DNA from: a virus
Strand: one strand, 5' to 3'
Virus record (IMG/VR): IMGVR_UViG_3300044680_000035
Coordinates: 1 to 24,258 of that record
Length of the DNA: 24,258 nucleotides
Shown piece after piece: positions 4,502 through 24,232 of this stretch (its first letter is position 1; every line of letters starts with the position of its first letter). Position numbers and translations under genes: made by a program. The notes beneath the pieces were generated by a model. That model was not told the origin of the DNA and did no database searches. It worked only from the letters and a program-made list of their open reading frames with translations.

Positions 4502-4585
4502 ATGTTTCACGTGAAACGTTCCCAGTTGTTCTTGATTGGGCTCTACATTGGCGTTGTGCTCGGGCTGTTGACCTTCGTGCGATGA
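4502..4585 (+). CDS. 27-aa predicted single-pass membrane peptide
   Basis: The peptide starts MFHVKRSQ, followed by the hydrophobic run LFLIGLYIGVVLGLLTFV and a terminal Arg: a basic N-terminus and one transmembrane segment. Its stop forms an ATGA with the terminase start, so it is placed like a true coupled gene. No clear Shine-Dalgarno sequence precedes the ATG. Codons 1-6 coincide with the parS palindrome, so the N-terminal residues may be dictated by the DNA site. It could be a small phage membrane protein or only a leader for terminase translation. Confidence 0.5.
   Translation: MFHVKRSQLFLIGLYIGVVLGLLTFVR
4503..4518. promoter_or_regulatory. parS: parS-like ParB-binding site
   Basis: The sequence TGTTTCACGTGAAACG contains the perfect 14-bp palindrome GTTTCACGTGAAAC (4504-4517). 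This is the core of the chromosomal centromere site bound by ParB, and the 16-bp consensus TGTTTCACGTGAAACA is matched at 15 of 16 positions. ParB loads on such sites as a CTP-dependent clamp and spreads. No parA or parB gene is in this window, so a protein binding here would come from the host or from elsewhere in the phage genome. Confidence 0.8.
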
Positions 4586-6453: not shown

Positions 6454-6737
6454 CGTTTCAGACAACCTCGTCCGCCGCTTACACCGCGTTCGTTCATCTG
6501 GACGTTGTATCGGACTGGGACTTCGGCAAGCTCGACTGGCCCACGATTCAATTCGCGCGCCCCCGTAAAATCGACTGGCGCTTCGAGTTGACCGACGAGC
6601 AGAAAGCGGAGATGACTCCGCAGCAAATCGAGTGGCACGAGATGAGATTCTGGACCGACGCCGCTGATGTGGTTCTTCCCGAGCCGCGATGTGAACACTG
6701 CGGCCACGTTCTCGACAGTTGGGATGACGGGTGGTAA
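6450..6737 (+). CDS. Hypothetical protein with C-terminal Cys pair (95 aa)
   Basis: The function is unknown. It has several tryptophans and acidic patches and ends CEHCGHVLDSWDDGW, half of a zinc-ribbon pattern. The GTG at 6450 overlaps the terminase stop (GTGA) and follows GGGGAG at a good distance, so it is preferred to the GTG at 6432. Lying between terminase and portal in an unbroken operon, it may assist packaging, but that rests only on position. Confidence 0.65.
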   Translation: MTFQTTSSAAYTAFVHLDVVSDWDFGKLDWPTIQFARPRKIDWRFELTDEQKAEMTPQQIEWHEMRFWTDAADVVLPEPRCEHCGHVLDSWDDGW

Positions 6738-17247: not shown

Positions 17248-18440
17248 CTAGCACCTTCGACTGGACCTACGACCCAAATAATCCGACCGGGCTTCTGAAC
17301 ACGTCCCAAATCCAGAACGCCCCCACTCAGGGGACGGGAACTGGCCAAACCGTGAACGGTGTCCCTACTGGCGAGCCGGTCGCCTCCGGCGCCCCTCAGA
17401 AGACACCGGCTGCCCCAACACCATCGGGGACCAACGACCCCGGGTTCCAGTGGACCTACGACCCAAATAATCCGACCGGGCTCCTGAACCCGACAGCCGC
17501 CAACGCCGCAGCAAATCAAAGCGCCACAGCGACAATCGACGCCTGGGCTCAGTCCGTTGGTTTAGGTTCCCTTTCGGGGTGGATCAACCAGCAGTACCAG
17601 ACCTTGGCGGGTCAGGGGATGGACGCCACCGACATCGCCAACACCATCGAGACGACCATCAACACCGCCCCCGGTTTCGACGCCTTGCTCCCTGGCTACA
17701 ACCTGCGTATCACCAACGGCTACACCAACACCGACCCCAACACCGGAGCAGGGATCGCGGGCTACATGGCCTACGTCCAACAAGTCCAAGCGATGGCCGA
17801 GACCGCTGGATTAGTACCTGGGACCATCACCCTGGCCGACATCGGCCAGTCCTGGGCCAATGACGTGTCGACGAACGAACTCAGTGACCGGATAACCACC
17901 GAGTACACGAACGCGATAAACGCCCAACCGGCGATCCAGGCCGAACTCGTCAACTACGGCTACACCAACAGCCTTTCACCAGGTCAACTCGCGAGTTACT
18001 ACCTGAACCCCGACAACACGGTTTCGACCTTGCAGCAGCAGTTCAACTCCGCCGTCGCTGGAGGGGAAGGGACGCTGACCGGCTTCGGGGAAATAGGAAA
18101 ATCCCAGGCCTACGCGTTACAGGCGTTCTTGTCCAACGGCGGTCAGAACAACCTCTCAACCGGTCAGGCGGCGAACTTCTTCTCGGGCCAACTCGGCAAC
18201 GGACTCAACTCAATCGCGGCGATGGCGAACGCCGGGTTCGAGCAGGCCCAACTCGGAACGGCTCAGAACGGTCCCGGCACGGTGACCCAATCACAACTTC
18301 TCGGAGCCGCTGAGGGCAACGCTGCGGCCTTGGCTGCTACCCAACGCGCCGCGCAGACCCGCGCTGCCCCGGGGTTGGGTGGTGGTGGGTTCACTGCGGA
18401 TCAGTCAGGCGTGGCTGGCGTAGGATACGGCAACTCCTAG
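17244..18440 (+). CDS. Virion protein with duplicated WTYDPNNPTGLLN motif (398 aa)
   Basis: The N-terminal 85 residues hold two copies of WTYDPNNPTGLLN (residues 7-19 and 70-82) separated by a Pro/Thr linker. A helical region rich in Ala, Gln and Asn then runs to a Gly-rich C-terminus (GLGGGGFTADQSGVAGVGYG). The first seven codons closely resemble those of the 1487-aa gene (MTSTFDW against MTSTLDS). It is the last gene of the large-protein run and probably an internal or channel protein; no enzyme motif is visible. Its ATG overlaps the previous stop (ATGA). Confidence 0.7.
   Translation: MTSTFDWTYDPNNPTGLLNTSQIQNAPTQGTGTGQTVNGVPTGEPVASGAPQKTPAAPTPSGTNDPGFQWTYDPNNPTGLLNPTAANAAANQSATATIDAWAQSVGLGSLSGWINQQYQTLAGQGMDATDIANTIETTINTAPGFDALLPGYNLRITNGYTNTDPNTGAGIAGYMAYVQQVQAMAETAGLVPGTITLADIGQSWANDVSTNELSDRITTEYTNAINAQPAIQAELVNYGYTNSLSPGQLASYYLNPDNTVSTLQQQFNSAVAGGEGTLTGFGEIGKSQAYALQAFLSNGGQNNLSTGQAANFFSGQLGNGLNSIAAMANAGFEQAQLGTAQNGPGTVTQSQLLGAAEGNAAALAATQRAAQTRAAPGLGGGGFTADQSGVAGVGYGNS
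17262..17300 (+). repeat. 39-bp in-frame direct repeat, copy 1
   Basis: The 39 bases encoding WTYDPNNPTGLLN recur at 17451-17489 with one silent difference (CTT against CTC). The offset of 189 bases is a multiple of three. Confidence 0.9.
17451..17489 (+). repeat. 39-bp in-frame direct repeat, copy 2
   Basis: This second copy of the repeat at 17262-17300 matches 38 of 39 bases. The near identity at DNA level points to a recent duplication or to conversion between the copies. Confidence 0.9.
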
Positions 18441-18458
18441 CCTCTCGGCTGAAACGCA

Positions 18459-18472
18459 GGGCGCTTGCGCCC
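18459..18472 (+). terminator. Hairpin at the end of the large virion operon
   Basis: GGGCGC-TT-GCGCCC is a perfect short inverted repeat 18 nt after the stop of the 398-aa gene. No U-run follows directly, the nearest being about 40 nt on, so termination is plausible but not certain. It would separate the large-protein transcript from the capsid transcript. Confidence 0.4.
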
Positions 18473-18539
18473 GAGTACCGGCGTAGCCGCTGTGAAGAAC
18501 TCGCTGGGACTTTTTCACTATTTTTTAGTCGACCTTGCC

Positions 18540-18605
18540 TGTGGATAACCAGTAGTAAAACCTGTTGATTTCTTGTGGATAACCCTGTGCATAACTTGTG
18601 GATAA
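18540..18605 (-). promoter_or_regulatory. Cluster of four DnaA boxes
   Basis: TGTGGATAA, the reverse of the DnaA box TTATCCACA, occurs at 18540-18548, 18574-18582 and 18597-18605. TGTGCATAA (box TTATGCACA) lies at 18586-18594. All four fit TTATNCACA and point the same way. The last three start 12 and 11 bp apart, about one helical turn, and the first is 34 bp (about three turns) away. TAGTAA directly after the first box resembles the DnaA-trio of bacterial origins, and T-rich DNA lies just before it. This is the layout of a DnaA-dependent origin or a DnaA-controlled promoter. Confidence 0.8.
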
Positions 18606-18613
18606 CTTGGTGC

Positions 18614-18643
18614 TTGACAGAAGGATATCCGTGTGCTTAGATT
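18614..18643 (+). promoter_or_regulatory. Promoter for scaffold and capsid genes
   Basis: A perfect TTGACA -35 hexamer (18614-18619) is followed after 18 nt by TAGATT (18638-18643), which fits the actinobacterial TANNNT -10 pattern. It starts 8 nt after the last DnaA box, so bound DnaA would sit directly upstream of RNA polymerase. The expected start near 18650 gives a leader of about 145 nt. Confidence 0.6.
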
Positions 18644-18660
18644 CCAATTGACGTAGACGC

Positions 18661-18686
18661 CTCGGTGTCGCTAGACGCGACCTGAG
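18661..18686 (+). other. Leader hairpin upstream of the scaffold gene
   Basis: CTCGGTGTCGC, loop TAGAC, GCGACCTGAG folds into a stem of ten pairs with one wobble and one bulged T. It lies in the presumed 5' leader about 110 nt before the scaffold start. It could stabilise the transcript or regulate it; no U-run follows, so it is not an ordinary terminator. Confidence 0.4.
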
Positions 18687-18795
18687 TGTGCGCGTCGCTG
18701 CCGTTGGATTGAGCCGCCCCTCACCAACGTGATTCCCGGGCGAGTCCATTTCGGAACTCCACGCGTTTCCACGTGTGCAAACAAAAGGAAAAGAA

Positions 18796-19281
18796 ATGCC
18801 AGAAGACGTTGAAGTCCTGACCACCGATGAACTGAAGTTGCCGAATGAAGTCCAAGCGCAACTCCGGATCGCCCGAAAGAGCGAGAAGGAGAACGAGGCC
18901 CTGAAAGCCCAGATAACGCAAATGGAGCGACACTCAGCAATCTTGGCCGCGGGGGTTCCGGAACACCCAGCACGAGAAGTTGTCTTCGCGAACTACGACG
19001 GTCCGCTCGACGGGGACTCAATCCGAGCCCACGCCGAGAAGATGGGGATCGTGGCTCAAGAGAGTGCGACACAGGTTACGCCTCAAGAGCAAGAAGCGCA
19101 GCGACAGATTCTCAACGCGGGTGGTGGAAGCCCACCCTCATCAGGTGATATCGACCTCGCAGTTGCCCTACGAAACGCCAAATCTCAAGCAGAGGTCATG
19201 GCGATTGTCAGAGAAGTATCAGGGAACCCGGGGTTCAGGAGCCGCGACGGTCTGATTGGAGAAATGCCACCGCCGATTTGA
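18796..19281 (+). CDS. Capsid scaffolding protein (161 aa)
   Basis: This protein directs shell assembly and is removed before DNA packaging. The layout is typical: an acidic N-terminus, a coiled-coil (about residues 18-46, QAQLRIARKSEKENEALKAQ), then AAGVPEHPAREVVFANYDGP (51-70) with LDGDSIRAHAEKMGI. Actinophage scaffolds share the AG.P.HPAR....YDG.LD...I...A pattern. The gene sits directly before the capsid gene. The ATG at 18796 is chosen over an upstream GTG (18775) because AAAGGAAAAGAA lies just before it. No protease domain is visible. Confidence 0.85.
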   Translation: MPEDVEVLTTDELKLPNEVQAQLRIARKSEKENEALKAQITQMERHSAILAAGVPEHPAREVVFANYDGPLDGDSIRAHAEKMGIVAQESATQVTPQEQEAQRQILNAGGGSPPSSGDIDLAVALRNAKSQAEVMAIVREVSGNPGFRSRDGLIGEMPPPI

Positions 19282-19293
19282 GCTAGGAGGCTC
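19280..19293 (+). promoter_or_regulatory. Shine-Dalgarno in a hairpin loop before the capsid gene
   Basis: AGGAGG (19285-19290), the strongest ribosome-binding sequence in the window, lies mainly in the loop of GAGC-TAGGAG-GCTC, 7 nt before the capsid ATG. The 4-bp stem begins on the scaffold stop codon. Presentation of the site in a loop would suit very high capsid translation. Confidence 0.5.
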
Positions 19294-19297
19294 GTAA

Positions 19298-20308
19298 ATG
19301 GCTTACACCACCACCGGGACAGTTGACTACGTACAGACCGCGTACGACATGCTGGCCTACTACGCCCTGCGTCCGGAGTTGTACTTCGACCAGGTAGCGG
19401 ACATCAAGCCAACCAACCAGTCGATGGCCGGTTCGTCGGTTGTCTTCAACATCCAAAACGACCTCGCGCTGGCGACGACCTCGTTGAACGAGTCGACCGA
19501 CATCACCCCGGTCGCTCTCACGTCCTCGCAGGTCACCCTGACCCTCGCTGAGTACGGTGGCGGCACGATTTCGACGGCCCAGGTCCGCGCGGAATCCTTC
19601 GTCTCGATTGACGAAGTGCAAGCGAATGCCGTCGGCTACTGGGCCGGTAGGACAGTGGACGAGTTGGCGAAGATTCAACTCCAAGGCGGGACGAACGTCA
19701 ACTACTCCGCCGGTCCTGGTGTGACCGTGGGCACCGCGGGTCAGCCCCCGACCGCGCGCAACCAGATCACCCCACTGGACACGTTTAGGGCCTATGACGT
19801 TCGCTACAACGTCTCAGCCCTGAAGCGCAACAACGTCCCCGGCTACGGTGGGTACTACCTCACCTTCATCCACCCCGACGTGGCCTTCGACCTCTGGATG
19901 GAATCGGGCAACCAGGCCCTCATCGCCCCGCACATCTACTCCGCACCGGACGAGGTGTTCAAGGGCGAAATCGGCTCTTTTGCGGGCGCGAGGTTCATCG
20001 AGACCCCGACCGCTCCGCTGTTCGCGGACGCCGGTTCCTCGACCACGGACACCGATGTCTACGGCACGCTGTTCCTTGGTCGCCAAGCCCTGGCAAAGGT
20101 CTGGGCGATGAAGGACGGCAACGGCCCGCACCCCGTTCTGGTCATGGGTCCGATCACTGACTACCTGCGTCGGTTCCAGCCGCTTGGGTTCAAGTGGCTT
20201 GGGCAATACGGCGTGTTCCGTTCGGCCTCCATCTGGCGTCAAGAGTCGGCTTCGTCTATCGGTCAGAACACGGCCGCAGGCACCGACACCCCGGCAGAAG
20301 ACCTCTAA
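19298..20308 (+). CDS. Major capsid protein, N4-gp56-type HK97 fold (336 aa)
   Basis: This is the main shell subunit. Diagnostic segments are GSSVVFNIQNDLALATTSLN (45-64), then ESTDITPVALTSSQVTLTLA and EYGGGTISTAQV, matching the N4 gp56-like family. That family shows a LTEG.T..P..LT....T.TL..YG pattern. Later come a DELAKIQLQGGTNV helix/loop and a C-terminal domain with LTFIHPDVAFDLW, FAGARFIETPTAPL and LGRQALAKVWAM. It follows scaffold by 16 nt with a near-ideal ribosome-binding site, and a strong hairpin follows it. The length is normal for the family. Confidence 0.92.
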   Translation: MAYTTTGTVDYVQTAYDMLAYYALRPELYFDQVADIKPTNQSMAGSSVVFNIQNDLALATTSLNESTDITPVALTSSQVTLTLAEYGGGTISTAQVRAESFVSIDEVQANAVGYWAGRTVDELAKIQLQGGTNVNYSAGPGVTVGTAGQPPTARNQITPLDTFRAYDVRYNVSALKRNNVPGYGGYYLTFIHPDVAFDLWMESGNQALIAPHIYSAPDEVFKGEIGSFAGARFIETPTAPLFADAGSSTTDTDVYGTLFLGRQALAKVWAMKDGNGPHPVLVMGPITDYLRRFQPLGFKWLGQYGVFRSASIWRQESASSIGQNTAAGTDTPAEDL

Positions 20309-23750: not shown

Positions 23751-24232
23751 CGATAATTTATGACGCTCTCATCGCTTACGATTCCCCCGTCGAATACGAT
23801 GGCACTGGGTTGCCCACCGGCTATCTGTTTACCCCTCCGAACGTGAAGGTGGAACCCACGTTCCTGCCTGATTCAACAGAACTAGAGAAGTCGTTATGGG
23901 CGCACTTTGAGAATAGATACCGCGGGGTCAACGTCTGGATTTTGAGTTCCGGCGAAATAGTACAAAGTGACCCAACCCCTGAAAATTCCAACACTGATAT
24001 GAGTTCGGTGTATCCCTGGGATGTGAATAACGCCGCCGCTCCGTACGTGACATCCGTGTTTGTGCCTGCGTTGCCTGCACCGCAGGTCGCCACCGTGACG
24101 ACGGTGAGCCATCCGGTCTACCCCGTGGCGTTCTTTTCCGGTGGTTCAACCCACTCAGTGACGAGTGCGCAGGCTACGCTTTTGGCTGACTACACCGCGT
24201 ACGGAATTGGTTACGCAGACCGTCTGACCTAA
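23747..24232 (+). CDS. Probable neck/tail virion protein (161 aa)
   Basis: The protein starts MTIIYDALIAYDSPVEYDGT, has a helix/strand middle (ELEKSLWAHFENRYRGVNVW), and ends in Thr/Val/Pro-rich beta strands and a helix (SAQATLLADYTAYGIGYADR). I do not recognise the family; composition and place after the head genes suggest a neck or tail component. The start is a TTG forming TTGA with the HNH stop, which is rare but keeps the overlap seen throughout the operon; the first in-frame ATG would be far downstream. Confidence 0.55.
   Translation: MTIIYDALIAYDSPVEYDGTGLPTGYLFTPPNVKVEPTFLPDSTELEKSLWAHFENRYRGVNVWILSSGEIVQSDPTPENSNTDMSSVYPWDVNNAAAPYVTSVFVPALPAPQVATVTTVSHPVYPVAFFSGGSTHSVTSAQATLLADYTAYGIGYADRLT

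Follow-up and report, generated by a model that had tools for sequence, protein, structure and literature searches.

Why should a cluster of boxes for DnaA, the host replication initiator, lie in the middle of the structural genes of a phage, and does it mark a replication origin or tie capsid expression to the host? The window analyzed here, a whole stretch of 24,258 bases from a virus record, has structural genes that run rightward. The terminase gene starts at 4582 and is followed at 6731 by a putative portal gene, assigned from its size and position with no family match; a gene for a 1487-aa protein and two further large genes separate the latter from a 398-aa gene that ends at 18440 and directly precedes the intergenic gap holding the array. 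This gap, of 355 bp, lies 5' of a scaffold-like gene (18796-19281, plus strand; ATG at 18796) that matches phrog_7813, a family of unknown function, and sits before the gene for the major capsid protein (19298-20308, plus strand; phrog_1357 and PF13252). The capsid protein is ~40% identical to those of Streptomyces phages of the Beephvirinae. No prophage came out of a capsid search of GTDB genomes, which leaves the host unproven, and the eight contigs examined held no WhiB gene.

Four exact matches to TTATNCACA, all on the minus strand (the plus strand reads TGTGNATAA), lie inside 66 bp, as a first-pass annotation of this DNA had claimed. Boxes 1 (18540-18548), 2 (18574-18582), and 4 (18597-18605) read TTATCCACA, and box 3 (18586-18594) reads TTATGCACA. 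Start to start they are 34, 12, and 11 bp apart, with gaps of 25, 3, and 2 bp, and the 25-bp gap contains a degenerate minus-strand box with three mismatches (TGTTGATTT / AAATCAACA; 18563-18571) that keeps an ~11.5-bp helical register with the others. The 2- and 3-bp gaps match the preference of Escherichia coli DnaA, which in vivo is found on box pairs with such gaps at almost all of its sites (PMC11317965). In 2000 dinucleotide shuffles the window held a mean of 0.2 exact sites, and two same-strand sites fell within 66 bp in one shuffle and three in none; shuffling the intergenic region alone gave even two same-strand sites in 0 of 5000 trials. The four-box cluster is real, chance being excluded by the shuffles, and the sites are very probably true DnaA boxes. 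A single further exact box (TTATTCACA) stands isolated at 24022-24030, close to the end of the window. The other elements named by the annotation were also located, namely a T-rich stretch at 18511-18527 (plus strand), a TAGTAA element at 18553-18558, and a TTGACA hexamer at 18614-18619.

The TTGACA hexamer begins 8 bp after box 4 and, with TAGATT at 18638-18643 (both plus strand) across an 18-bp spacer, forms the sole promoter-like site within 18000-19400. Both hexamers recur in relatives: TTGAC[AT] with a -10-like hexamer ~17 bp on was present in all 18 relatives with a located promoter, 17 of which also had a leader of 150 to 180 nt. The leader contains a conserved RNA hairpin (18659-18691, plus strand) that starts ~9 nt past the expected transcription start. 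In an alignment (A8) that takes in the window, L006, L008, L009, and others, 10 of its 13 pairs showed compensatory, double-sided changes, a result that beat every shuffle and slid control; a search of Rfam gave no match above threshold. This covariation indirectly supports a transcript start where the promoter predicts one and is independent of the promoter motif. Because the TTGAC[AT] and -10 elements are kept in 18 relatives and the leader hairpin covaries, the scaffold/capsid promoter is very probably real. The boxes thus adjoin a promoter with a conserved motif and a covarying leader, which is indirect evidence as to the working of the promoter. On the other side of the array, the terminator scan gave no match at the upstream hairpin, and the predicted RNA fold of 18438-18540 was not unusual (z, -1.0).

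A search of viral contigs returned 26 relatives, and among about 25 of them the boxes were present only in L006. This is a distant relative, with 66 to 77% DNA identity in the genes around the array, and despite that divergence a 70-bp block (18538-18607), including box 1 and the degenerate box, aligned to it without a mismatch, apart from one additional 22-bp box unit in L006. Its array accordingly has five boxes at distances of 34, 22, 12, and 11 bp, and since the variant consists of one extra unit of 22 bp, the helical register is kept. The identity of the 70 bp could reflect recent recombination instead of selection. The sole other exact match to the spacer sequence, in L151, was rejected as a chance 20-mer within an unrelated tail gene. 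The array is absent from about 20 other relatives, some with capsid proteins 93 to 94% identical, and these retain the promoter and the covarying leader hairpin; in most relatives the preceding gene's stop codon leads directly into GGTGCTTGACA, giving the same promoter with no boxes. Conservation among related phages, which the first-pass annotation had set as a test, therefore divides, the boxes being maintained in the diverged L006 and missing from about 20 others.

The position occupied by the array is filled differently elsewhere. In L029 (3513-3626) it holds a different 11-nt direct repeat of the CTGAGAGA type, with spacing of 35 and 11, and an inverted copy lies inside the promoter spacer, so that the whole looks like an operator array. 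As relatives are box-less, L006 has five boxes, and L029 has another repeat, the slot upstream of the promoter is variable and regulatory in appearance, judging from these comparisons, with the DnaA array as one of its accessory forms. About 20 relatives keep the promoter and hairpin without the array, which marks the array as an accessory regulatory insert.

We favor the reading, at a probability of roughly one in two, that host DnaA binds the array cooperatively and modulates, most likely activates, the late scaffold/capsid promoter. Host DnaA would bind the head-to-tail boxes cooperatively and form an oligomer. Relative to the expected start, box centers fall near -49, -60, and -72, with two more at about -83 and -106; from there the oligomer would act on RNA polymerase at the neighboring TTGACA/TAGATT promoter, and transcription of the scaffold/capsid operon would thereby be modulated, most likely upward. 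Arguing for this reading are exact boxes far above chance, gaps of the kind that DnaA prefers, a block unchanged in L006, and an array that abuts a promoter conserved in relatives. DnaA is not essential for the promoter, because most relatives use this promoter with no boxes beside it. We infer the binding of DnaA, the direction of regulation, and its timing in infection. Promoters of this kind are familiar in bacteria: in E. coli, DnaA activates nrdA and polA (PMC11317965), as well as glpD and fliC, and represses dnaA and mioC. The likeness lies in boxes near a sigma70-type promoter and in pair gaps of 2 to 3 bp (PMC11317965); the difference is that the promoter here would serve a phage structural operon and that its dependence on DnaA is a proposal. 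A phage promoter near DnaA boxes with host DnaA as the effector also has a precedent in lambda, where DnaA stimulates transcription at pR/pO at the origin (PMC3985674), but the lambda boxes near pO are on the downstream side of the promoter, and their role is in early replication rather than with capsid genes.

Similar arrangements recur across viral contigs. Three phased boxes were found in at least 119 contigs, versus 3 for a composition-matched permuted control, and the motif occurs in unrelated phages spanning GC contents of 0.26 to 0.66. Two phased boxes lay 4 to 14 bp 5' of TTGACA in 57 contigs (43 clusters), and a correctly spaced, sigma70-like -10 element followed in 26 of these 43 independent clusters. 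The corresponding figures were 5 of 18 for a reverse-complement hexamer control, with a strong -10 element in none, 125 of 307 for other TTGACA hexamers in the same loci, and 8.3% for background. Oppositely oriented boxes are found 5' of TTGACA as well; 13 of their 39 clusters have a -10 element, as against 26 of 43 (Fisher P = 0.016). Since this orientation occurs too, and since many arrays in other places have no promoter next to them, the link between boxes and promoters is a tendency. These comparisons lend support to the annotation's suggestion that DnaA controls the capsid promoter, which we read from a conserved adjoining promoter, cooperative-type spacing, and the 26 viral clusters.

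The gene that follows a box-pair promoter nearly always shares its strand. In L236, with six boxes, and L212, with three, the arrays precede promoters of capsid operons whose major head protein belongs to an unrelated family, the L236 operon also having a scaffold match, and in L226 a box pair lies upstream of terminase genes. The genes that follow triple arrays include several families of terminase and scaffold, whereas a control set of other genes consisted mostly of tail tape-measure, endolysin, and recombination families, the 25 listed including a single terminase and a single major head protein (both tallies count families, not genes, and no statistic was drawn from them). Phased arrays directly 5' of the promoters of unrelated scaffold/capsid operons were also noted in the six-box L052, alongside L236 and L212. 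In L203 and L229 a shared array sits between divergent promoters, so that each side has boxes 5' of a TTGACA hexamer. Among cultured phages, similar arrays are likewise present in lactococcal viruses and microviruses, and in phages that we take to be T5-like and T7-like. A tentative extension, to which we give appreciably less credence than to control of the promoter in this window, is that many unrelated phages independently placed cooperative DnaA-box arrays at capsid or terminase promoters and that the level of host DnaA, or its dilution as the phage replicates, times the late genes.

T5-like phages resemble the window in having clusters of DnaA boxes, at the injection stop region, but these boxes lie elsewhere in the genome, and the proposed effect is on DNA injection (PMC13250531). 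Arthrobacter phage Seahorse (MH910041.1; L187) carries a phased array of four boxes, one of them mismatched at one position, that is unannotated in its record; the boxes lie at the right end of the genome, oriented towards the left-end terminase and head genes, and differ from the window array in this terminal position and in having no clear TTGACA promoter.

The strongest alternative, though we think it unlikely, is that the array is a DnaA-dependent phage origin, at which a DnaA filament would engage DnaA-trios and melt DNA towards the T-rich stretch. The resemblance that points this way, and so against promoter control, is on the box strand, which reads box 2, AG, the weak box AAATCAACA, GGTT, and TTA CTA CTG, the last being three trio-like triplets (18550-18558, minus strand) 15 bp from box 2. 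A strong box, 2 bp, a weak box, 4 bp, and three trios fit the BUS search rules, which call for a box, a spacer of up to 16 bp, and at least three trios with a middle A on the complementary strand (PMC8287927). The same strong and weak tandem boxes, short spacer, and three trios are seen at the oriC of organisms with a basal unwinding system, such as Bacillus subtilis and Helicobacter pylori (PMC8287927). Three trios thus lie within 16 bp of the boxes, as at DnaA-dependent origins, weakly so at local composition: their score of 8 of 9 has a chance per box of 0.0006 at window composition and 0.02, near chance, at local composition. Because random flanks reach that score in 0.06% to 2% of cases, the motif is suggestive, and the trios run directly into another box. 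The box-trio block is identical in L006, and the T-rich 20-mer ranks in the top 0.03% of the window; the element, 80% AT over 20 bp here versus 70% at best in L006, has no match there. Also in favor of an origin, polymerase, helicase, and initiator genes were not recognized by Pfam and PHROGs in the early regions of three long incomplete contigs, scans of which did find Gam, Erf, ArdA, and HNH genes.

Against an origin stands the cumulative GC skew, which the first-pass annotation had proposed as a check near 18.5 kb and which reaches neither a maximum nor a minimum at the array, in the window and in the 42.8-kb L006 contig alike. Close relatives lack the array, and their contigs of up to 36 to 39 kb contain scattered single boxes with no cluster elsewhere; with the absence of a skew extremum, this argues against a family-wide origin. 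The array differs from chromosomal oriC in lacking a clear AT-rich unwinding element in both phages, a skew shift, and conservation across the family. A local origin is possible, judged by motif, because the box-plus-DnaA-trio motif lies inside the array. The earlier proposal that host DnaA starts replication here is thus weakened by the skew and by relatives without the array, while the box-trio motif in the conserved block still speaks for it.

Less probable than an origin is a datA-type sink, in which multiplying phage genomes would titrate DnaA and stop initiation on the host chromosome, proximity to the promoter being incidental. Tandem high-affinity boxes with no origin signal would suit such a role, as would the confinement of every exact TTATNCACA in the L006 contig to the array cluster and the wide distribution in phages of arrays that often have no adjoining TTGACA promoter, but there are only four or five boxes, and the window and L006 alike have the array immediately next to the promoter. 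Lower still we place a switch in which DnaA would repress the late promoter at low phage copy number, until replication dilutes DnaA over many arrays and frees the promoter; this would explain boxes at a late promoter and would fit titration of DnaA, but the boxes lie upstream of the -35 element, a position more typical of activation. Least probable of all is a phage-encoded regulator binding repeats that merely look like DnaA boxes, for although the slot takes other regulators, as the different repeat in L029 indicates, three of the four sites here are exact high-affinity TTATCCACA with gaps of 2 to 3 bp, and the same motif is found in unrelated phages across the GC range given above.

Control of the late promoter by host DnaA would mean that the phage reads the replication state of its host when deciding to build particles, and it would link the host cell cycle to virion production. 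A search of the open literature did not find such a link, by way of DnaA-controlled late promoters, described. Comparable layouts turn up in phages unrelated to one another, so the late genes of some phages may be under the control of the host initiator, and this recurrence makes the idea testable in cultured phages.
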